Shown here: in pieces, positions 6,301 to 24,106 of the stretch
How the letters are laid out: the number at the start of each line of letters is the position of its first letter
Numbering within the stretch: position 1 is the stretch's first letter
Origin: an uncultured Fimbriimonadaceae bacterium
GTDB lineage: Bacteria; Armatimonadota; Fimbriimonadia; Fimbriimonadales; Fimbriimonadaceae
Assembly: GCA_937961665.1 (NCBI GenBank)
Contig: CALGMO010000015.1
Span: 1 to 36,744, forward strand
Direction: 5' to 3'
DNA: 36,744 nt
Translations under genes and position numbers: made by a program
The notes under the pieces: generated by a model
The model's input: only the letters and a program-made list of their open reading frames with translations
Told to the model about the DNA's origin: nothing
The model's database searches: none

Positions 6301-7887
6301 ATGCCGAGGATCGAGGCCGGCCCGGTCCGCCTTTGCACGTACGAAACCTGGGAACTCACCGCCGAGCTGGCGTCGGCGCCTGCGGACCCTTTCGAGCCGG
6401 ACCCGGCCTTCCTCGAGTGGACCACCCCCGCGGGCGCAACGAGAAGGGCCGGAGCGTTCTGCGACTCGGAGGATGGACGGGTTTTCCGAGCCAGGATTCT
6501 GCCGACGGACCCCGGCCCGCACCGATGGCGGCTCCGCAGCAGGGAAGGGCGCCTGCTGGCGGAGGGCGGCTTCGAGGCCGAACCGGGCGGGCATCCGGGC
6601 ATGGTGAGGGCGGAGGGCTGGCGGTTCGTGTGGTCGTCGTCGGGTCGGCCGTTCTTCTTCAACTCCACCACCGCCTACCTGATGGCCGGGCTGAGCGACG
6701 CGAGGATCGACCAGGCGCTGGAGAGACTGGCCGGGTACCGGATCGACCGCATCCGAGTGGCGCTGTGCCCCTCGAGGCAGATCGACGGCGGGCGGTGGAA
6801 CGAGCCACAGGTGAAAGAGCGGGACGACTTCACCTTCCGCTATGGCCCTTGGCCCGCCCGGAATCCGGCCGACTCCCTCCACCCCTCCTACGACCCGAGC
6901 CGATTCGATCTGGGCCACTGGAGGAAGTTCGAACGGCTCCTGCGCCGCGCCGACGAGCTGGGCATCGCCGTGCAGGCAGTGTTCTTCGTGGACGGGCAGG
7001 AGGCGCAGAACTACCCTTTCGATCGCGATCGGGCCGGCGACGACCCGCTCGAGGAACGGTACTTCCGGTACGCGGTCGACAGGCTGGCGGCTTTTCCGAA
7101 TGTGGAGTGGTGCGTGACGAACGAGTGGGCCCTGTTCCGCCCCGACGAGTGGGTTGAGGCCGTTGGTGCGCGCCTCGCGGCCTACGACCCTTACGGGCAT
7201 CTTCTGAGCGTTCACGGGCACGGCCACTTTCCGTTCCGGTCCAGCCCTTGGTGCACGCACGCCCTGTACCAGTGCTGGGACGAGCACGGCTCGCATCCGT
7301 TCCTGCTGCGGGCCCAACGGGACCAGGAGGCTGCGGAACAGCCCAAGCCGCAAGTGAACGAGGAGTTCGGGTACGAGGACCACTACGCCGCGTGGGGAGA
7401 AGGCAGGCGGAGCCCAGCCAGGGATGCGGACTCGCGAATCCGGCTGGCTTGGGAGATGCGGATGGCCGGAGCCTTCTGCACCACGGGGGAGTCGGCGGCC
7501 GACGGCAGAGGGGGCTGGATCAACGGCCTGCGCGACGGAGACAGCCGCCTCCTGCAGGGCCACCTCTGGATGCGCGCGTTCTTCGAGACGATGGATTGGT
7601 CGGCCATGGCGCCGGCCGAGGCATCGGGCCACGCCTACGCCCTGGCGAACCCACGTGGGGAAGTCGCCGTGTACGGCTTCGGGGAGGGGTGGACCGCCGT
7701 GCCCCTGCCGCATGCCGGACCCTGGGACGTGGATCGCTTCAGCCCGTGGACGGGCGAGTGGGCGGCGGTGCACCGGGGGGCTGCGCTCGAGCGGGACCCG
7801 TGGACCGGCCCCGGGGCGGTGCTTCCGACGCTTCACGCCGGCCGCCCGGTGGCATACCGCATCCGGCCCTCGGAGGGAACCGGCTGA
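6301..7887 (+). CDS. DUF5060/DUF4038 family putative glycoside hydrolase
   Basis: A 528-aa protein with an N-terminal beta-sandwich of the DUF5060 type (about residues 5-95, including FRARILPTDPGPHRWRL), followed by a DUF4038-like (beta/alpha)8 barrel. In the barrel, PFFFNSTTAYLM stands in for the usual opening strand, and ALERLAGYRIDRIRVALCP, VEWCVTNEW and VNEEFGYEDHY provide candidate catalytic acidic residues. Families of this type act on plant or microbial glycans; the substrate here cannot be read from sequence. No signal peptide is seen, so it may be cytoplasmic. The ATG at 6301 is chosen because a -10 element directly precedes it and the domain begins there; the open frame extends to 6211 with no support. 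Confidence 0.8.
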   Translation: MPRIEAGPVRLCTYETWELTAELASAPADPFEPDPAFLEWTTPAGATRRAGAFCDSEDGRVFRARILPTDPGPHRWRLRSREGRLLAEGGFEAEPGGHPGMVRAEGWRFVWSSSGRPFFFNSTTAYLMAGLSDARIDQALERLAGYRIDRIRVALCPSRQIDGGRWNEPQVKERDDFTFRYGPWPARNPADSLHPSYDPSRFDLGHWRKFERLLRRADELGIAVQAVFFVDGQEAQNYPFDRDRAGDDPLEERYFRYAVDRLAAFPNVEWCVTNEWALFRPDEWVEAVGARLAAYDPYGHLLSVHGHGHFPFRSSPWCTHALYQCWDEHGSHPFLLRAQRDQEAAEQPKPQVNEEFGYEDHYAAWGEGRRSPARDADSRIRLAWEMRMAGAFCTTGESAADGRGGWINGLRDGDSRLLQGHLWMRAFFETMDWSAMAPAEASGHAYALANPRGEVAVYGFGEGWTAVPLPHAGPWDVDRFSPWTGEWAAVHRGAALERDPWTGPGAVLPTLHAGRPVAYRIRPSEGTG

Positions 7888-7978: not shown

Positions 7979-8998
7979 ATGACCGAGATCGCCTGGCAGC
8001 AGCTGCTCAAGCCCTATCGCACCCCCGACGCGCGCAAGGCTTGGACGCAGGTTTTCAACACTATCCCCCCGTTCCTCTTGCTCTGGGTTGCGACCCTGTA
8101 CTGCGCCTCGCGGGAGTGGTGGCTTCCGATGGTAGCGGTCGGCTTGGCCGCGGCCGGATTCATGATCCGCACGTTCATCCTGTTCCACGACGCGGGGCAC
8201 GGCTCGTTCTTTCCCTCCAAGCGTGCGAACGAGATCTTCGGCTTCTGGGCGGGCGCGTTGGCCTTCACGCCGAGCCATCAGTGGTGGCACAGCCACGCGA
8301 TCCACCACGGCTCCGCGGGAAACCTCGACCGGCGGGGCACCGGCGACGTGCTGACCCTCACGGTGCGCGAGTACCTGGCCTTGCCCTGGTGGAAGAAGGT
8401 CGGCTACCGGATCATGCGGAACCCGCTGTTCCTGTTCACGGTCGGGCCGCTGTTCGTGTTCGGCATCGCCTACCGCTTTCCGACGCGCTCCGACGGGCCG
8501 AAGGAGCGCAGGAGCGTTCTGCTCACCGACCTGTTCCTGATCGCTTGGGCGGTGGGGTGGAGCCTGCTGTTCGGCTGGAAGGCGTACCTGATCGCCCAGC
8601 TCCTCGTGCTGCTGGTTGCCACGGCCTCCGGCGTGTGGCTGTTCTACGTGCAGCACAACTTCCCGGGAACCTACTGGGAGCACAAGGACCGCTGGAGCTA
8701 CTACGACGCCGCGCTGGATGGCAGCTCGTTCTACAAGCTTCCGAAATGGCTCGACTGGATCACGGGGCACATCGGCTACCACCACATCCACCACCTGAGC
8801 AGCCGGATCCCGAACTACAACCTGGTGCGGTGCTACGAGGAGCTGCCCGAGCTGCACGTGAAGCCGATGACCCTGCGCGACAGCCTGAAGTGCCTGAGCA
8901 TCCGCCTGTGGGACGAGGATACCGGCGAGATGGTCGGCTGGTCGGCTCTGAAGCGCCACCGTTCGCCGAGCTCCGGCGCGTCCTCCCAGCGGGCCTGA
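7979..8998 (+). CDS. Membrane fatty acid desaturase
   Basis: A 339-aa integral-membrane di-iron desaturase that inserts double bonds into acyl chains of membrane lipids. All three histidine boxes are present: HDAGH at residues 70-74, HSHAIHH at 104-110, and HIGYHHIHH at 264-272. Two pairs of hydrophobic segments lie around residues 25-66 and 175-222, the family's usual topology. The sequence is closest in feel to acyl-lipid omega-6/delta-12 desaturases, but regiospecificity is an inference. The start is uncertain: a GTG at 7949 in the same frame would add ten residues and lies closer to the -10 element, and neither has a good ribosome binding site. Electron donors (ferredoxin or similar) are not encoded nearby. 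Confidence 0.92.
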   Translation: MTEIAWQQLLKPYRTPDARKAWTQVFNTIPPFLLLWVATLYCASREWWLPMVAVGLAAAGFMIRTFILFHDAGHGSFFPSKRANEIFGFWAGALAFTPSHQWWHSHAIHHGSAGNLDRRGTGDVLTLTVREYLALPWWKKVGYRIMRNPLFLFTVGPLFVFGIAYRFPTRSDGPKERRSVLLTDLFLIAWAVGWSLLFGWKAYLIAQLLVLLVATASGVWLFYVQHNFPGTYWEHKDRWSYYDAALDGSSFYKLPKWLDWITGHIGYHHIHHLSSRIPNYNLVRCYEELPELHVKPMTLRDSLKCLSIRLWDEDTGEMVGWSALKRHRSPSSGASSQRA

Positions 8999-9513
8999 GG
9001 CGCGCTGGCTCCGAGGCCCCGGCAGGTTCCGGGGGTCCGCACCCCGAGTGCGCCGGGCAGGCGCGAAGACATGCCCTGCTCGGATGCGTGTAGATTGCGC
9101 GCCCCCAGAGAGCAGGGGAGGCGCGGCTGGATCCCTTGTGGAGGTTCCGTTGCGTACCGAGCGCGCTGGTCGGGCTCTCCCGCGTCGCCCGAGCATGCTC
9201 CCCGCACGCGGAAGACCGTGCTCTCCGATGATGAAAGTGCCCGACTCTCGCGTGCAGAGCGGCGCACTTTCATCGCACGACTCGGGCACTTTCATCGCAC
9301 AACCCGTGCAGTCTCACGCGAGGACTCAGGCCGATTCGAGCGATGCCCTATGGCCCGGCGACGACTCGGTCCGCTCCTCGGATCTCCGGCCTCGCCCCCA
9401 GGTGACCGACGGCGCCCTGCGATGGTGCCCGACGAGGGCTCGCGAGGCTCAGCGTGCCGATCGTACTTCTTACTCCTGGCCTTCGAGGGTGCCCCAAAGG
9501 ACCGGCGTTGGGC
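8999..9513. other. Spacer upstream of the defence-like operon
   Basis: About 515 bases without a supportable gene, separating ordinary metabolic genes from the large operon. It contains the inverted/direct repeat at 9230-9296 (listed separately) and a TAGATT hexamer near 9090 with no plausible gene behind it. No integrase, tRNA or transposase remnant is visible at this edge. Confidence 0.5.
9230..9296. repeat. Inverted and direct repeats of a GATGAAAGTGC motif
   Basis: The left arm GATGAAAGTGCCCGA (9230-9244) is perfectly complementary to TCGGGCACTTTCATC (9282-9296). A third, inverted copy of the 11-base core lies between them at 9264-9274 and forms a 22-base-period direct repeat with the right arm. 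The three copies sit about 290 bases upstream of the defence-like operon. Confidence 0.85.
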
Positions 9514-9519
9514 TAGAAT
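9514..9519 (+). promoter_or_regulatory. -10 element TAGAAT of the defence-like operon
   Basis: TAGAAT is the best -10 match in the upstream region. A GTG that is in frame with gene 1 lies seven bases after its end (9526), and the preferred ATG lies at 9586. No -35 box is evident. It is the only candidate promoter seen for the three genes, which overlap or nearly touch. Confidence 0.45.
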
Positions 9520-9585
9520 GGTTCCGTGACGTTCTCGGAAGGCCGTGACTCCGGCCGATTCCGAGGCGGAAAGAGGCTTTCAGGA

Positions 9586-12500
9586 ATGGCGTGCACAGTC
9601 GTTCGATGCCACGAGTCGGCGAACCACAGCGAGGAGACGGCGCTTCGGCGCGTTGAGGCTGTCCTGAATGGCAGGCCGGGTGAGGAATGGGTCGTTCTCG
9701 CCAACCTGATGTTCTCACCTTCGCCAGACCGCCCGTCCGACGAACTCGACCTCGTGTGTATCGGGACAAGGGGCGTCGTAGCAATCGAGGTGAAGCATTG
9801 GCAGATCGTGACGGACGAGGATCGGCGTCGGCTGGAACGGGAGGCAGAGCGGATCAGCATGAAGGCCAGAAGGCTGTCCGGCTCGCTCAAGGCCAAGCTG
9901 CGTCAGTCCGGTCTGTTCGTTAGCGCAGGGATCTTGCTCACCAAGGCCTATTCCCGGCACGGTGAGGCAATCAACGGAGTGCCGATCCACGATGTCTCCT
10001 CCATTTCTCTACTCTTCGACAGCCTCTCAGGCCAACAGCTCTCTGGCGAGGCGGTTCGCTTCTCCGCTGAAACACTCCATGCCCAGGCTGCTATCCGTCT
10101 GCGAGAGAAGATACGCCGTCTTGCCGGCTACGTTAATTTGGAGCACCAGAGCAGCACGCAGGATGGTTTCCATCGAGTTTTCCGTGGCGTCGAGGCGAGC
10201 ACCAGGGAGCCGGTCGTTCTGCACCTGTACGATCTGTCCGTTGGGGCTGACGGCGATCTAGGCAACTTGGCGCGGCGGGAGTGCGAAACCCTGCAGCGGC
10301 TGCAGAAGAGTTCGCACGTTCCGTACATCCGAGAGACGATTCGGGACGTGCCGGGCTACGAGGGGGAGATGCTGTACTTCGTCCTGATGGATCCCTGCGC
10401 ACCCACGGTGGCTAAGCGGAAACAGGACAAGGCTTGGTCATGGCTGGAGCGGCTCTCTTACGCGACGAAGGCTCTGGAAGCACTCCAAGAGCTGTACGAA
10501 CTGGGGGAGTCCAGGCGAAGCCGGGAGCGTTTGGTGCTGCGCACCATATCCCCGAACACGCTTCTCGTTGCCAACGACAACCTGCCGGTCTTCAGTGATC
10601 TTCAGCTCTCGCGCCTGCCAGGCCAAGAGACGATCGTGCGCGGATCTGAGACCGTTCCTCAGGACTCATGGATCGCTCCTGAGATTCGAACCCGCGGCTG
10701 GCAAGTGGCGTCACAGGCATCCGACATCTTCGCACTCTGCACCGTCCTCAAGGATGTCTTCAACGTGGATTTCGATGGGCGCTCCGCTGACGACTGCGAC
10801 CAGGTGGTCCGCATCTTGGACAAGGGCTGCAGGGAGGAGCCTGGGGAGAGAGCGTTGGACCCGAGAGCGCTGGCGGAAGAGCTGAAGAGCGTGGGCGCCT
10901 CCGCGGAAACCACCGCGACAGCGGACAAACCTGAAGCGAGGAACCCCTCCGTGGAGTTCTGGAGCGAGGGAACGACCGTCCGTTTCAAGAACCGGCGATT
11001 CCGCGTCGTTTCGAGACTGGGAAGCGGAGGAGTTGGCCACACGTTCAAGGTGGAGAGCCTGGAGGAGGGCTCCGATCGAACGAACGGTACGTTTGTGGCC
11101 AAAGTCTTCCGAGAAGGTGTGGACGTTGAGCGCGTCCTGAAAGCGTACCGGCGGGTCCAGAGCGCATCGTCGGATGCCGGCTTGGCTACCGTCCACGAGG
11201 TCGCCGATGCGGCGGAGCCGAACGGAATCGGCGCTCTGATGGAGTGGGTGGAGGGGCCAACCCTGGACAGTCTGTCCGGTCGGCTCGGCGAGCAACTGGA
11301 TACGGACCTTGATCAGACCCTGGAGGCGCTGCTGAGAGGATGGATCGAGGACTGCTGCAGGGCCTTGGTGAGGCTCCACTCCCAAGGACTGGTGCACGGG
11401 GACATCAGCCCGCGCAACCTCATCTACCACAGGGAACGGCTTCGCATCATCGACTACGACTTGGTCACGTGGGAAGGCGAGGCTGCGGTGGGATCAGGGT
11501 GCCCGCGCTACGCCTCTCCGGAATCCTCGCTGAAGGAAGGGCTCTTTCCGAGGGACGACTTGTACGCGCTCGCAGCGTCGCTGTTCGAAGCCGTCTTCAG
11601 CGTCCAGCCGTTCCCCGCGTGTGAAACGGGTCTCGACAAGTCTCGGGGCCTTGACTGGACTAAGGAGCGGGCGGCCGTCTTAGGCGCCCTTGCAGAGTTC
11701 TTCAGTAGGGCAACCGATCCCGATCCGAACCTGCGGTTCCAGAGCGCCAGGGAGGCCCTCGCCTGGCTGAGGGGTGAGGAACCCATCATGGAGGAGCGGA
11801 CCAAGCAGGTTGTGCCTTGGCTGACGAATTTGCTGACGGTCTATCCCGGCTCGGTGCACGGCAACGTCGAGACGCGCGGTCTTGACAGCGAGTTCGCCGA
11901 GAAGACCTACGTGCCCACAGAGCTGGAGGATGCGCTGCGCGAAGATCTTCAACGCGGCGGGTCGCTCTTGGTGATCCTCTGCGGAAACGCCGGGGACGGC
12001 AAGACGGCGCTGTTGCAGTCGGTCGCGAAGACCCTCGGTGGCACGAACGTTCGGTCCGAGGATCGCGTGTGGACGTTCCAATCCGCGGATGGGCGCAGCA
12101 TCCTCATCAACTTCGACGGGGCGGCGGCCTGGAAAGAAAAAAGCTCAGACGAGCTGCTGGACGAGCTGTTCGAGCCGTTTCTTCATGGCGAACCGGAGGA
12201 CAGAAGAGTCCACCTTCTGGCCATCAACGACGGTCGCCTGCTGGAGTGGCTGCACAACTACGAGAGGGCCAAGGGCCGGACACAGCTTACGGAGACCCTG
12301 TTGAACTGCCTCGCCGCCGACGACGATCCGAGACCTGCACCAAGCCACATTCAGTTCATCAGCCTCAACCACAGGTCGCTGGTCGGCGGTGTGGATGAAA
12401 GGCGGCAAACGACCCAGGACTGGTTCGTCGATCAGCTCGTCTGCAGCATGCTCGGCGGGGACGATGCGCCGCAGACTTGGGAGCCCTGCAAGACCTGCAC

Positions 12501-13578
12501 GGCATGGGGGAAATGTCCGGTTGGGCCCGTCGCGCACCGCCTGATCGCGTCGTACCAGGAGACCGAGGAGTCGCGGACGGAGGATGCCCGTCGCGGCAAG
12601 AGGATCCGCAAGCGGCTGACAGAGGCGCTGCAACTGGTGCACCAGAAGGGGGAGACCCACATCACGGTTCGAGAGTTGAGGGGCGCGCTCAGCTACATCC
12701 TGTTCGGAACCATGACGTGCGAGGAGGTGCACGAAGCCCCCTCGAAGAACCTGTGGCACTACTTCGAGCGTGCGTTCGATCCCGAGTCGCCGGACCGTCA
12801 GGGAGCTCTGCTGCGGGAGCTGACGCTACTGGATCCGGCCTTGGAGGCGCATCCGCTCTTGGACCGTTGGGTGGTGGGCAGATCCTCGCAGAGAATCGAC
12901 GGCGCGGGGCCCGCCTATCCTGGCCTGCCGCTGAGCGCTGCCCGTCGGCGCGCCTACTTCGAGTGGCTGCCCGAGGAGATCGAGAGGGTCACCGGTTGGG
13001 AAGAGGGTTTGGGTCTCGCCGGGGGCGAGCACCTGCGGTCGTTCCACGAGGCGTCGTTGCGGGATGCGGATCAAAACAAGGAGCTGTGCGGCAAGCTCTG
13101 CCGGGGCATCTCGAAGCTGGAGGAGTTGCCGGAGGCGGCTCTTCGACGGAAGGATCGGGTGCCGCTGCGGCTGATCGGACGCAACCCCACCGAGACGATC
13201 TTCTGGATCGAGAAGAAGCTCGAGCGGTTCCGATTGGAACCGGAGTGGCCGCCAGCGTTGCGGCTGGGCCTGCCCGTCCTGCCGAACCGCCTCAGGCTGG
13301 TGTACCGGTACGCGGACGGCGGCGAAGAGATTCTAAGCATGGGTTATGGGCTGTTCCACACACTGCTCGCAATGAGTGAGGGCGAACAGCTGGGCGAGCG
13401 CCTCGCGGACGACCTGTACGCGAACCTGAAGCTGTTCGTCCAGCGACTATCGATGGAAGACGAGCGAGAGTGGTATGCGTGGCATCCGCGCGGGCAGGAC
13501 GAGGTCCTCCGGCTGGCGGTTCGCCAGAAGAACGGTAGACAGGTGATCTGCTGCGAAGATTTGGAGGAAGAAGCGTGA
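9586..13578 (+). CDS. NERD nuclease-pseudokinase-Ser/Thr kinase-ATPase protein (PglW/MAD6-like)
   Basis: A 1330-aa multidomain protein (numbering from ATG 9586). Residues about 5-160 are a NERD nuclease-related domain with the active-site pattern D55...E68-V-K70. About 190-430 resembles a kinase fold but lacks HRD and DFG equivalents (LRTISPNTLL, SDLQLSRL), so it is probably a pseudokinase. About 470-740 is an active-looking Ser/Thr kinase: Gly loop 479-484, K506, HGD at 604-606 with N611, and D623 in place of DFG. A P-loop ATPase follows: GNAGDGKT at 800-807, an AIND strand with D882, and a Cys cluster C968/C971/C977 that may bind metal. The order recalls PglW of BREX type 2 and the MAD6 kinase of MADS. 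AAAGAGG at 9570-9576 supports this start; a GTG at 9526 is the alternative. The stop overlaps the next start (GTGA). Confidence 0.85.
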   Translation: MACTVVRCHESANHSEETALRRVEAVLNGRPGEEWVVLANLMFSPSPDRPSDELDLVCIGTRGVVAIEVKHWQIVTDEDRRRLEREAERISMKARRLSGSLKAKLRQSGLFVSAGILLTKAYSRHGEAINGVPIHDVSSISLLFDSLSGQQLSGEAVRFSAETLHAQAAIRLREKIRRLAGYVNLEHQSSTQDGFHRVFRGVEASTREPVVLHLYDLSVGADGDLGNLARRECETLQRLQKSSHVPYIRETIRDVPGYEGEMLYFVLMDPCAPTVAKRKQDKAWSWLERLSYATKALEALQELYELGESRRSRERLVLRTISPNTLLVANDNLPVFSDLQLSRLPGQETIVRGSETVPQDSWIAPEIRTRGWQVASQASDIFALCTVLKDVFNVDFDGRSADDCDQVVRILDKGCREEPGERALDPRALAEELKSVGASAETTATADKPEARNPSVEFWSEGTTVRFKNRRFRVVSRLGSGGVGHTFKVESLEEGSDRTNGTFVAKVFREGVDVERVLKAYRRVQSASSDAGLATVHEVADAAEPNGIGALMEWVEGPTLDSLSGRLGEQLDTDLDQTLEALLRGWIEDCCRALVRLHSQGLVHGDISPRNLIYHRERLRIIDYDLVTWEGEAAVGSGCPRYASPESSLKEGLFPRDDLYALAASLFEAVFSVQPFPACETGLDKSRGLDWTKERAAVLGALAEFFSRATDPDPNLRFQSAREALAWLRGEEPIMEERTKQVVPWLTNLLTVYPGSVHGNVETRGLDSEFAEKTYVPTELEDALREDLQRGGSLLVILCGNAGDGKTALLQSVAKTLGGTNVRSEDRVWTFQSADGRSILINFDGAAAWKEKSSDELLDELFEPFLHGEPEDRRVHLLAINDGRLLEWLHNYERAKGRTQLTETLLNCLAADDDPRPAPSHIQFISLNHRSLVGGVDERRQTTQDWFVDQLVCSMLGGDDAPQTWEPCKTCTAWGKCPVGPVAHRLIASYQETEESRTEDARRGKRIRKRLTEALQLVHQKGETHITVRELRGALSYILFGTMTCEEVHEAPSKNLWHYFERAFDPESPDRQGALLRELTLLDPALEAHPLLDRWVVGRSSQRIDGAGPAYPGLPLSAARRRAYFEWLPEEIERVTGWEEGLGLAGGEHLRSFHEASLRDADQNKELCGKLCRGISKLEELPEAALRRKDRVPLRLIGRNPTETIFWIEKKLERFRLEPEWPPALRLGLPVLPNRLRLVYRYADGGEEILSMGYGLFHTLLAMSEGEQLGERLADDLYANLKLFVQRLSMEDEREWYAWHPRGQDEVLRLAVRQKNGRQVICCEDLEEEA

Positions 13579-15404
13579 GCAGAGGCAAGCAGGAAAGGGC
13601 TATTGCCCGGGTGTTCGGAGAGGCGTATTCGACAGCTCTTGGTGGCAATACTCTCCACTATTACGACCCGAATCTTTTTGACGAGCTTTGGACGGCTACC
13701 ACGGACTTGGTTCTGCCGCTGACACCTGGCGACTTTAGCGTCGGTTCGGTTTTGCCTGCGGTCATGTACATGATCCGCCGCGGGCATCGACGGGGCAAGG
13801 GTCGATTCCATGAGACATATGGAGCCTCAAACGGCTTGACAAACCAGGTAACAGTGGCTTCGGTGGCTAGGAAACTCGTCCAATGGCACGCACTGTTTTC
13901 GGGATTCTCAGATGAGATTAGGTTGGAGATACTAGGTGATCTTCTGTTGGCAACTGCTCTTGAAACCAAGAATCGGAAAGGTAGGCATGATATTGAAGTC
14001 CTGCGTGTGTATCCGTCTCACTACTTCGCCTCCTGGATAGATCTTCCACAGAAAGTAGGGAATCTACGCTTGGTCCCAGAGCTTATTGCCAACCTTCTCT
14101 CTGTTCAGGGCAAAGAGGTAAATCCCGCATCTAAAGAATTAAGCACTAGTGGTGGGGTGTCCCAGTCAAGCCTCTTAATAAAGGTGTTCGCAAAGGGCAC
14201 GGTTTTTTCGAACAACCCGAGCGAGCTTCATGGCGATAAATTTGATGAGCAAGAGGCATTGGCAGTTGATGAGCTCCTTATGGTTCGCTTAGGTGCGGGC
14301 TGTAGTTCTGCTCCAGAGAAATCCAAGGATACCACGATCGGAGCGTCAATTCCAAGAAACAAGCCGCTAAGCTCAAGGGCAAGTGAGATCTTTCGTAGCG
14401 ATTTGGTTAACTTTCTAGAAGCTTGTGGAGAGGCAGTTCCTAGGAGGATTCTAACTGGAATGCTGGAAGCACTCATAGGTATGGGGCTGTGGCACACCTC
14501 GTTGACATCGCTGAGGTGTTCAGTGGAGTGGGAGAAGACGGGCACGGTGCCGCATGAGAATGACCAGATTCCAGTTATGGTCTTCGTGGACGCATCCAAT
14601 GGTGCCATTGCGGATCTTAGGAATGAGTCGGAGCGTTCTTTTTCAGATATTCTATCTCTGTTGGACGATGCTATCGCGGCTATGGCGTGTATTAGAGTGC
14701 TACAGGAGAACGTGAAGTACGACCAAACGTTTCAATTACTGTTTGGAGAATCCGATGGGAATGCGGAGAGGCTCAATAAGTTGTACCGCATACGGAAACA
14801 AGATGTGCCTGGGGCTGAAATGGCAATAGGTATTATTTCTAGATATGTGGCAGCTCTCGGAGAGAAACTTAATAAGGAAGATCTGTGCCCTCCAGCTCAG
14901 CAGGTGTTGCTCAAAAACACAGGAAGCGATCCTGTTCGTGCATTAGGGGAAGCGTTGGTCGAACTAAGAGGTGGAGGGGATCTTCGTTCGAGGTTTCTGA
15001 AGCTGTTGGACTCTGCTGGCATGTCATTGGAGCCTCATGGGCTTGTCCGAAAACGTAGCGTCAAGCGTAAGATGTCAGACGGTTCTCGCCGCCAGACTGA
15101 GGCACGGTCGATTGCTCTTTCAGATGAACTTCTTGAGGCGCTAGTGCATACGCACTTGTTCGAAAGAGAGTTTCCGGTCTCATACCAGGAATTCCTCACC
15201 TTGTTGCGGGACCGGTACGGCCTGTGTGTCGATCAGGCCCCGCCAGGGCATGGAATACCTCAGGAGCTGTTGGTCCGTAACCGGAACATCTTGGAACGTC
15301 GGTTGCGCGATTTGGGGCTTCTCAGGGGTGTCAATGACTCCGAGTCGATGAAGCTCTTGCGATCCCGGTACAAGTACGCAACCACAGGCAAACAAAGAGT
15401 TTGA
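13575..15404 (+). CDS. Defence-operon middle protein of unknown function (MAD7/DptG position)
   Basis: A 609-aa protein with no named domain I can assign. It starts with GTG overlapping the upstream stop codon. The N-terminus contains a basic stretch (YMIRRGHRRGKGR near 65-77). The last 90 residues (FPVSYQEFLTLLRDRYGL, then a Leu/Arg-rich helix ending in LRDLGLL) look like a winged-helix, DNA-binding-type module. By position between a NERD-kinase and a HerA-like ATPase it corresponds to MAD7 in MADS or loosely to DptG in Dnd restriction; this rests on context. Base composition is odd: sampled 60-base lines give 23, 27 and 28 G+C at 14821, 14641 and 14101, against 43 at 12781 and 42 at 17101 in the neighbouring genes. 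GC rises again from about 15180. Confidence 0.75.
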   Translation: MSRGKQERAIARVFGEAYSTALGGNTLHYYDPNLFDELWTATTDLVLPLTPGDFSVGSVLPAVMYMIRRGHRRGKGRFHETYGASNGLTNQVTVASVARKLVQWHALFSGFSDEIRLEILGDLLLATALETKNRKGRHDIEVLRVYPSHYFASWIDLPQKVGNLRLVPELIANLLSVQGKEVNPASKELSTSGGVSQSSLLIKVFAKGTVFSNNPSELHGDKFDEQEALAVDELLMVRLGAGCSSAPEKSKDTTIGASIPRNKPLSSRASEIFRSDLVNFLEACGEAVPRRILTGMLEALIGMGLWHTSLTSLRCSVEWEKTGTVPHENDQIPVMVFVDASNGAIADLRNESERSFSDILSLLDDAIAAMACIRVLQENVKYDQTFQLLFGESDGNAERLNKLYRIRKQDVPGAEMAIGIISRYVAALGEKLNKEDLCPPAQQVLLKNTGSDPVRALGEALVELRGGGDLRSRFLKLLDSAGMSLEPHGLVRKRSVKRKMSDGSRRQTEARSIALSDELLEALVHTHLFEREFPVSYQEFLTLLRDRYGLCVDQAPPGHGIPQELLVRNRNILERRLRDLGLLRGVNDSESMKLLRSRYKYATTGKQRV

Positions 15405-15416
15405 ACAGCTGTAACC

Positions 15417-18400
15417 ATGGCACAAGACGTGAAGCGTGTGGATTGGATTCGAGCAGCTTTGCAGAAGCTGGCTGGGAGGCCCCACGCTGGGGACCTCGCC
15501 TTTACCCGAGCGTTCGACCGCGAGACGATTGAAACGGTGCTGTCTCAAGGAGATTCGCTGGGGGGATGGGAGCTGCGAGGAGTTGGCCATTCAAGTGCAA
15601 ACGGATGGATCACCGCTGACCGAGCAGTTGATCTGCGTGAGGCAAAGGGGACGGCGACGCTCCTGCTAGTGGATCGGGACTGGTCGGGCTCTGGGATGGA
15701 CGGCGTCTACAGCTCAGCCAGAGAAATTACGGAGAGCAAGCTGCTGGCCGCCGCCGTGCAGATTGCCTTGGCATCCCTTGAATCGGGGCTGACGGCTTTC
15801 GCCAAGGAAGCGTTCCGCCACGCGTCGCGCGTCGGCGGGCGGGGCCGAGCCGTATATGACAGCGAGAAGCTCGAATTTCTTGCGGCTCTAGCCGAGAATT
15901 CACAGGGGGTCGGTGAGGCGTTGCCCCATCTTCAACTGTGGCCGGTCAGCGGGGATCTGGAGCGGGCTCGGGCCTTGCTGGACGTCTCGGGGGTCATGGT
16001 GGAGCGTCTCTTATTGTCCCCCGCCACCGCCCAGACAGCCGAAGCGCGCATCGCCGGTCTCCAGCTTCAGGAGGCGGAAGACAGGACCGTTCGGGAACTA
16101 GCCGAGCAGCTGCGGAAGGGCGCCGCCTTGCCCGCCAAGACGACTCTGCTCCGGGTTGCGCGAGACTCCCGCCTTTGGCTGGGTAACCTTCGGCCGCTGT
16201 TCCTCGAGAAGAGAGTGCAACGGATCAAGGTCGTTTCGTGGCGCAAGAACGGGAAGCTCTCCAAGTGGAGCGGCTTGGTAGAATCAGGACCGGACAGCCT
16301 GCCAGAGTACCGGGTGGACCCCAAGAATCCGAAGAACAAACTCGAGGTGTGGTGGACGGTCCATCCAGGGAATCTGCCTCGCGGCTCCGCCTCCTTCAAC
16401 GTTCGTGTGTTGGCCGGGGACGAAGAGCTCGCTTCCCAGACCGTGAGCCTCAACGGTCGGAAGGAGCAGAAAGCGTCCTTCGGTCCGGAGGACTTTTCGG
16501 AACTGGAAGAGCACGGGCGGTGGCAGGCCAGAGTCGAGGTCACGGTGGTCGGCACGGACGAAGTCGCTCCCGAGACAACGGAGGACTTTATCGTCTGCTT
16601 CGGTACGGTTCCAATTGACGAAAAGGTTTTTGCGGGAACGGTATATCGTTGCCCGGTGGAGGGCGCCGTCGAACTCGACACACGCGAGGAGGCCGAGGCT
16701 CTCGCCGAGGCTGCTGCCAAAGGCGAGCATGGGAATCCAGACAACAAAGGCTTCCTGAGCTACCGCCCGAGGGACAAGAAAGGCGAGATTAGGAAGTCGT
16801 TCCGAGTGGAGCGGCCGCCGTTGCTCGCCAAGATCGAGAAAGACTGGTCCGAGCGGAACGACGCGCCGATCGGCCGATGGGTGGTGCGGGCCCGGCCGGA
16901 CGGATCGCTCGTGCAGGGACCGGACTACGAGCCCGTACCAACCGACGGGTTGGGCGACGCGGAACAGAAGCTGAGGGAGGCCACTGAGGCGCTCCGGAAG
17001 AGGCTCTCCGGGACGGGAGGGATGCTGTCCCAGATCTACGTTCACAAGGGGACCGGAGCGTCCGTCATCGGAGAGTACCTGAACGCGTGGATGTCTGCGT
17101 TGGAGAGCGGCCCTGCCCGCTTGGCGCTGGCCAACACCGTCGAGGTCCAGTCGCCGTCTGGGGAGACCATCGGCCTGATCGTGCTGCCGTTCCATCCGAT
17201 TCGGATGGCTTGGCAAGCTGCTTTCGACACGCTGGCGATCCATCTGCGCTGGGAGCAGGGCCTGAAGGCCGATCGGGTGCGGAAGGCGTTGTCCAACCTC
17301 GACGGGGCGCACTTCCCGTTCCTCCTGCCCGGTCTGAAAGCCGGCGAGGCTTTCGTCTTCGGCGACTGCATCGGCATGGCGGGAGTGGCGATGGTTTCCA
17401 CCAACGACCCGGAACCGAAGGCTAGCCTCTCGATGCTCGCCGCGGCCTACTCGGGCGACTCCGACCGCTTGAGGCCCGAGATCAGCATCGAGAGCGGGGA
17501 GGCTTTGGCGCGCGTTCTCCGTGCATACCTTGACACTCATCCGGGAAGCTCCCAGCTGATGGTGCATGCGCTCCGGCCGGGCGACGGCGCCACGGTGGTT
17601 CGGGCGTTGGGCAAGGCACTCAAGGCCGAAGCCGAAGACACGGAAGAGTCGGAGGACGGAGACGAGCGACAACGGGATCGCAGAGTCGCCGTCCGACTGA
17701 ACCTGTTTCCCGCACGGCGCGAGTCGATGGTGACGGGCCGGCATCTGACCAAAATCGTCCAGCGACGACGCACCGGGGCGCCGAACCCCCACGAGGAAGA
17801 TGCCTGGTGCCTGGAGTCCGTCGACTTCGGTGGCGGACGGATGCTGCCGAGGTTGCGTTGGGCCAAGCGCGACGAGGGTGCGCCTCGCGAGCCCGGACAT
17901 CTGTCCATCGCGTTCGACTGCTTCTCTTCCAGGGTGGCGTGCGAGGAGCCGACCGGCGAGCTGGCGCCCCTCCTGGCGTTTGGGCTGATCGCGAACGTTC
18001 AGCGGGTGTTCGCCGTCGAGGATGATCAGCCGATGTGGCGGACGACGATTCCCGCCGGCCTGGAGGGCCCCAAGCTCCAGGATCGGATCGTAACCGAGCG
18101 CTTGGTGCGAGCCCAGGCGGCCGTCTTGAAGTCCGTCGCTCGGCACCTTGGCTGCGACCAAGGTTGGCCCGTTCTGAAGACGCTCCTCAGTCCTGAGAAC
18201 CGGCAGCTGCTGGACGGCCTGCACGACCGGTCCGATTGGGTCGTGACGATGGACCGGAACATCGGTGTGGAGTACTTCGATTCTCCCAAGCATCTGCCGG
18301 ACGTCTTCGACGCCTACGTGATCGACGCTGTGCCGGAGCGGGACGATCTCGGTTGTCTGCAGCTGATCACGTCGACTTCGCACTTCGACGAGGTCCGGGG

Positions 18401-23321: not shown

Positions 23322-24106
23322 CACACGCGCACATCCACCGCAACCGAGCGTTCACGCTCATCGAGCTGCTGGTCGTGATCGCGATCATCGCGATCCTCGC
23401 CGCCATCCTGTTCCCGGTGTTCGCTCAGGCGAAGATGTCCGCCAAGCGCACCCAGGACCTGTCCAACGTCAAGCAGCTGAACCTCGGCGTCCAGATGTAC
23501 GCCGGGGACTTCGACGACACGTACCCCTTCTGCTGGGGATGGGACTCCGAGTGGAGACCCTGGACCGTGCAGATCAACCCGTACGTGAATAACTTCGACA
23601 TCTACAAGTCGCCGGTCGACAACTGGGACCGCGGGGCGACCGAGCCTGGCGGGACGTTCTGCGACGCCAACCGACGGCCTCCTCGGCTGGCCACCTACTC
23701 GATGAACTTCACGTGGCCCGCAAACGGCTGGGGGTGGGACGGCAACGCCCTCCAGAACCAGATGTCGCCCACGAGCAACATGGGCGGCGCCTCGACGACC
23801 AACGTTCCCTCGCCGGCGACGACGATTCTGCTGGCGCCTAGGCCGAACTGGTACCACTTCTACTGCCAGGGATGGGCGACGGAGGTGTTCTTCAACTACG
23901 GCGAGTTCAACATGCAGGGAGGCGGCGCCCGGATGTTCAACGGCGGCACCAACTACGCCTTCTGCGACGGGCACGCCAAGTACTACAAGAAGGAGGCCAC
24001 CCTCCAGCCGCAGGGCAACCAGGCCGGCACGCCTCCTCCCGATCTGTGGCCCAACGACCCGGTGAACTGGCCGTGGCCGGTCGGCATGTGGGACAAGCGT
24101 CAGTAG
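23318..24106 (+). CDS. Prepilin-type pseudopilin with C-terminal DGH motif
   Basis: A 262-aa protein with a class III (type IV prepilin-like) signal: a short basic leader followed by A-FTLIELLVVIAIIAILAAILFPVF, including the conserved Glu five residues after the expected cleavage site. The remainder is rich in Trp, Tyr, Asn and Pro, and near the end has NYAFCDGHAKYYK, the signature of the DUF1559-like pseudopilins that are multiplied in Armatimonadota, Planctomycetota and relatives. It starts inside the lacI stop codon (ATGA), so it is translationally coupled to the regulator. Placement inside a sugar-uptake operon suggests a surface role in capturing or sensing the polysaccharide; that is inference. 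Confidence 0.9.
   Translation: MTHAHIHRNRAFTLIELLVVIAIIAILAAILFPVFAQAKMSAKRTQDLSNVKQLNLGVQMYAGDFDDTYPFCWGWDSEWRPWTVQINPYVNNFDIYKSPVDNWDRGATEPGGTFCDANRRPPRLATYSMNFTWPANGWGWDGNALQNQMSPTSNMGGASTTNVPSPATTILLAPRPNWYHFYCQGWATEVFFNYGEFNMQGGGARMFNGGTNYAFCDGHAKYYKKEATLQPQGNQAGTPPPDLWPNDPVNWPWPVGMWDKRQ

Follow-up and report, generated by a model that had tools for sequence, protein, structure and literature searches.

A DndFGH/MADS6-8-like restriction operon with a low-GC middle gene that may be open to exchange by recombination

The middle gene of a three-gene restriction-type operon, located in a 36,744-nucleotide stretch of DNA from an uncultured Fimbriimonadaceae bacterium (the window, meaning the whole stretch analysed), is markedly poorer in GC than its two neighbours, and its counterparts in one pair of related operons form a mosaic with a sharp boundary. 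We read the operon as a DndFGH/MADS6-8 restriction system in which gene 2 would carry an exchangeable reading part and the compositional island in the window would be a product of recombination; this joint reading has, in our estimation, an even chance of being correct. The features concerned are as follows.

9595..13578, + strand: gene 1, with a NERD nuclease-like domain, a pseudokinase region, a Ser/Thr kinase (MAD6-like) and a fused DndF/SspF-like P-loop core
13575..15404, + strand: gene 2, a MAD7/SspG-like subunit of 609 aa
15417..20480, + strand: gene 3, a DndH/DptH/MAD8-like protein with a C-terminal HerA/FtsK ATPase
13555..15644, no strand: low-GC3 island, GC3 0.52 versus 0.79 outside, from two-state segmentation and model comparison
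15045..15311, + strand: C-terminal winged-helix-like region of gene 2, residues ~491-579, from the AlphaFold2 model, entropy and the relatives' breakpoint

Judged from its sequence, the operon belongs to a known superfamily and represents a stand-alone restriction system of DndFGH/MADS6-8-like type. Gene 1, for which an alternative ORF start at 9526 is possible, matches Pfam NERD (E 3e-7) and Pkinase (E 6e-16) and NCBIfam MAD6 (E 1e-42), the last with 146.6 bits and thus below the equivalog cut-off of 460. Its residues 771-1040 match PADLOC SspF (E 5e-23), corresponding to the DndF-like P-loop core of subunit 1 in DndFGH; the hhalign comparison with E. coli DptF is weak (E 5e-5, probability 68), and the motifs GNAGDGKT (Walker A) and IND are visible by eye in the translation. 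Gene 2 matches NCBIfam MAD7 (E 6e-32; 111.4 bits, below the equivalog cut-off of 410), PADLOC mad7 (E 9e-8) and PADLOC SspG (E 3e-10), the SspG match being confined to ~95 C-terminal residues. No homology of gene 2 to the classical, E. coli-type DptG was detected in an hhalign comparison of its profile with seven DptG sequences (E 0.42), and a Foldseek search against solved structures returned no significant fold. Gene 3 matches PADLOC DndH (E 5e-22) and mad8 (E 1e-15), aligns with E. coli DptH over 323 columns (hhalign E 7e-14) and carries the HerA/FtsK ATPase of DndH. Its translation contains GQPGMGKT, FDEAH and FVEVKYR, all read by eye, the last of which would fit a restriction-type PD-(D/E)xK nuclease.

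The operon shares with DndFGH (DptFGH) the F-G-H gene order, the NERD/kinase-fused DndF-like core, the DndH-like HerA ATPase and the apparent lack of a modification module, but its gene 2 gives no profile match to E. coli-type DptG and matches the related SspG at the C-terminus. The available portion of Rakesh et al. 2024 (PMC10853773) already describes DndF with NERD and kinase domains, as well as DndFGH without a modification module, which it reports as a frequent state, and proposes DndG as a triple winged-helix target-recognition subunit. We met no description of gene-2 exchange or tandem gene-2 copies in the portions of the DndFGH literature available to us, including PMC10853773. The best family matches of genes 1 and 2, along with the mad8 match of gene 3, liken the operon to mad6-mad7-mad8 of MADS (methylation-associated defence system). 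Unlike MADS, however, the scores of genes 1 and 2 fall far under the equivalog cut-offs, gene 1 possesses a DndF core, and neither a methyltransferase nor further mad genes were found in the ten flanking window genes tested (0/10); dnd modification genes were likewise not recognised among the flanking genes tested. The SspF match in gene 1 and the SspG match at the gene 2 C-terminus recall SspFGH (mBio 2021, PMC8092258, available in part), but the latter spans only the C-terminal residues given above, and no sspBCD were recognised near the window operon.

Gene 2 has a GC content of 51.0% and a GC3 of 0.53, against 63.0% and 0.78 in gene 1 and 63.8% and 0.79 in gene 3. The chromosome flanking the operon has ~70% GC and a GC3 of mostly 0.85-0.95; the operon lies below its flanks and gene 2 lower still, therefore the operon as a whole appears somewhat foreign, with gene 2 the more strongly so. 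The GC depression of gene 2 inside the operon had been pointed out in a first-pass annotation of the sequence, and its G+C counts per 60 bases are reproduced here (43 at 12781, 35 at 13561, 28 at 13621, 28 at 14101, 27 at 14641, 23 at 14821 and 36 at 15181), save for position 17101, where we count 43 instead of 42. The value of ~70% GC that it gave for the neighbouring genes belongs to the flanking chromosome, the operon neighbours being at ~63%. Segmenting the GC3 of genes 1-3 into two states delimits the island with a log-likelihood gain of 92, compared with at most 13 in 40 permutations, and places its left limit within 13516-13632 and its right limit within 15630-15675. The first-pass annotation also posited a clean breakpoint within gene 2, followed by 75 host-like codons. 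Neither survives the segmentation: the island spans the entire gene 2 and ~75 codons of gene 3, and moving its end from 15645 back to 15165 costs the model 8.5 log units. GC3 is intermediate (0.685) over the final 74 codons of gene 2 and low again (0.596) in the first 100 codons of gene 3. Since the island extends into gene 3, a sharp breakpoint inside the window gene 2 is unsupported. Neither end of the island carries convincing repeats.

Of 291 genomes from the phylum of the window, 8 contain homologous triads, some merely remote or partial; others occur in nine genome contigs, on two Rhizobium plasmids (the only plasmid-borne relatives) and in further genomes. Gene 3 was not detected in the 100 host relatives searched, including two congeners, and in the empty-site comparison the window flanks either have no match in the congeners or match on different contigs. 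No gene 2 was present in the viral contigs scanned. Gene 2 shares 33-40% identity with homologues that occupy the equivalent place in their operons; the closest relative stands at ~40%, and a final genome search for closer alleles added none. All 17 gene-2 homologues match mad7. The operons of relatives are surrounded by a mixture of type I, type III and ISP restriction systems, none of which is a constant partner. Gene 2 is broken by a stop in loci L017 and L020 and by a frameshift in L022 and L029, and gene 3 is likewise interrupted in L017, L020 and L022.

The relatives provide a case of exchange. Locus L015 is annotated as Chromatiaceae (purple sulfur bacteria), and loci L054-L057 come from genomes sampled from its order and family; the alignment of L015 with L055 demonstrates gene 2 exchange for this one pair in one clade. 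The two are ~60% identical in DNA over gene 2 codons 1-497 and 92% identical over the C-terminal winged helix and gene 3, with ~91% across the gene 2 end and gene 3 start, while the blocks upstream of gene 2 show ~92-94% identity, apart from one block at 83%. The best breakpoint, L015 codon 497 as numbered on the gene-2 sequence used for comparison, reaches a z of 16.4 against at most 4.3 in 500 permutations and 3.4-6.0 in control pairs. Identical synonymous codons, summed over windows, amount to 101 of 277 (36%) in codons 1-480, 81 of 110 (74%) in codons 481-600 and 149 of 179 (83%) in gene 3. As the synonymous codons display the same step, protein conservation alone does not account for the jump in identity. 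In codons 1-480 the quartet sites place L055 with L056 (70 versus 50), but beyond them they place it with L015 (31 versus 4 and 49 versus 4), and an N-terminal gene 2 extension of ~150 aa is common to L055 and L056 and absent from L015. In an alignment read by eye, the breakpoint corresponds to window protein residues ~490-505, where the C-terminal winged helix begins in the AlphaFold2 model of the window gene 2 (pLDDT mostly 82-97 in the region). The Chromatiaceae boundary thereby falls exactly where the first-pass annotation had suspected one.

The recombination reading of the first-pass annotation is partly supported: the mosaic bears it out in relatives, and the window contributes compositional evidence. 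The window operon has no close relative, therefore a direct mosaic is absent and the case for the window leans on composition. Together with a longer gene-2 branch (1.68, as opposed to 1.01 and 1.00 in the other two trees, long branches being unsure), the composition makes it likely that gene 2 was replaced in the window itself. A mosaic or an island might also arise in assembly, if the 4.3 kb contig of L055 or the window island joined reads of different strains. L015 and several other loci are from metagenome-assembled or draft genomes, the window genome consists of 142 contigs, and a second copy (L054) is present in the genome of L055. However, the reading frames are unbroken across the junctions, the overlap of the gene 2 GTG start with the gene 1 stop is intact in the window, and independent assemblies repeatedly show islands at this gene; we regard an artefact as very improbable.

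In the four loci L015, L054, L055 and L056, toxin-antitoxin-like genes that differ by locus lie between genes 1 and 2. L015 has Unstab_antitox and DUF433/DUF5615 at 8487-9801, antitoxin and DUF433-like genes also occur in L055, L056 has a PIN gene at 6895-7606, and other PIN-like genes are seen by eye on the - strand of L054. The extension of L055 and L056 is either fused to gene 2 or lies in its reading frame, and its only match, a weak one, is to ddrB-ParB in L055. In L054 the intact operon is followed, beyond gene 3, by pieces of what appears to be another, decayed gene 3.

When GC3 was segmented in 18 operons, that of the window among them, gene 2 was the only place with clearly significant low-GC3 islands: these occur in the window, L015 (gain 59), L054 (58, wider), L056 (71) and L057 (17), and more weakly in L055 (12, partial contig). 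The islands of L056 and L057 stop within gene 2, ~50 and ~120 codons short of its end, the same shape that had been ascribed to the window. L023, where a brief part of gene 3 is picked out, and L026, with a segment of slightly higher GC3, are barely above their few permutations. Low GC as a family trait of gene 2 was ruled out, a check that the first-pass annotation had proposed: most triads have gene 2 at the GC3 of its neighbours, and the GC of gene 2 equals theirs in L016, L017, L020-L024, L030 and L059.

These islands bear on an alternative in which the operon moved whole, gene 2 having been low in GC already in the donor or by constraint (e.g. weak or paced translation), so that no replacement need have occurred in this lineage. 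In its favour, five of the six loci tested from the Chromatiaceae sample have low GC3 at gene 2, sequence-divergent ones among them, and the deep trees are congruent. The GC1 and GC2 of the window gene 2 are lowered as well (0.58 and 0.42, versus 0.66 and 0.45-0.46 in its neighbours), and are therefore a pointer to long residence at low GC. By contrast, gene 2 is at or near the GC3 of its neighbours in the high-GC loci L019-L022 and L030, therefore no family-wide constraint applies, and the swap in L015/L055 is real. We consider transfer of the whole operon an unlikely but credible account. The preferred reading is that the gene-2 segment of the window would have been gained by homologous recombination from a lower-GC relative, and that the recipient operon would itself have been horizontally acquired.

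At the scale of the family, gene 2 does not stand out. The trees of genes 1, 2 and 3 are congruent at clade level, contrary to the discord that the first-pass annotation had anticipated. The diversity peak it expected in gene 2 appears as an excess divergence confined to the Chromatiaceae sample, while the overall matched-set entropy is 1.42 for gene 2 versus 1.40 and 1.40 for genes 1 and 3. Gene 2 is the best conserved of the three in alphaproteobacteria, averaging 4.5 points above genes 1 and 3, and nine E. coli dptFGH alleles show no diversity peak in dptG; these two observations rule out a general hypervariability of subunit G. Within gene 2, the C-terminal winged-helix-like region is the most conserved part by entropy.

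The pattern invites comparison with HsdS, the specificity subunit of type I restriction systems, in which target-recognition domains are swapped (PMC3077401, PMC7557576, available in part). In both, recombination would swap the reading part and keep conserved ends, as the L015/L055 mosaic displays with its variable part replaced between conserved flanks, and extra gene copies occur. Unlike HsdS, gene 2 is an unrelated protein, its exchange is seen in one pair only, there is no sign of phase switching, and the subunit lacks family-wide excess diversity. By this analogy, the likeness would be one of mechanism, with no homology.

L021 and L019 have gene 2 in tandem, with three and two copies, respectively, lying between genes 1 and 3. 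The copies are ~50% identical within each locus and are grouped by locus in the tree, which suggests that they are old, retained duplicates, as would be expected if every copy has its own role. The tandem copies are compatible with a specificity subunit. We infer that the exchanged part of gene 2 sets target specificity, a role that agrees with the published DndG proposal and with the tandem copies. Alternatively, the exchanged part could be a sensor or interface hit by phage inhibitors, the swaps serving to escape anti-defence proteins rather than to gain new DNA specificity. In the model, helices dominate the exchanged part, the clear winged helix lies outside it, and several sensors would equally explain the tandem copies. 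Against this, the related DndG was modelled with three winged helices, and related modules occur in SspB and FokI, according to the available portion of PMC10853773; two strand-bearing N-terminal stretches of the gene 2 model could also be more winged helices. We find a sensor role improbable.

With gene 2 as the specificity subunit, gene 1 would sense or regulate through its nucleotide-binding DndF core and its kinase and NERD nuclease domains, gene 2 would read DNA via winged-helix domains, and gene 3 would translocate and cut DNA as a HerA ATPase with a nuclease domain. The N-terminal ~490 residues of gene 2 would constitute the exchangeable reading part, and its C-terminal winged helix would stay with gene 3 for docking or a core DNA contact. 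A bolder proposal, which we hold to be rather unlikely, is that gene 2 serves as an interchangeable reader cassette in a restriction system without its own modification enzyme, entering by recombination before the C-terminal winged helix, with some hosts keeping two or three diverged readers for several targets. The findings touch on the question of how DndFGH-type systems without their own modification genes tell self from invader: natural swaps with a sharp boundary in the middle subunit may point to the part doing the telling, and L015/L055, the L021 copies a/b/c and the L019 copies a/b offer ready-made allele pairs.

Two minor observations concern the window outside the operon. The start of a prepilin-like gene (N_methyl), at 23342-23500, matches tens of places per genome of the genus; taken with the small size of the phylum, this is a hint, though no proof, of an Armatimonadota host. 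Repeats of GCACTTTCATC, both inverted and direct, are clustered at 9230-9307, ~220 bp upstream of the operon, with four matches in the window versus 0.5 expected.
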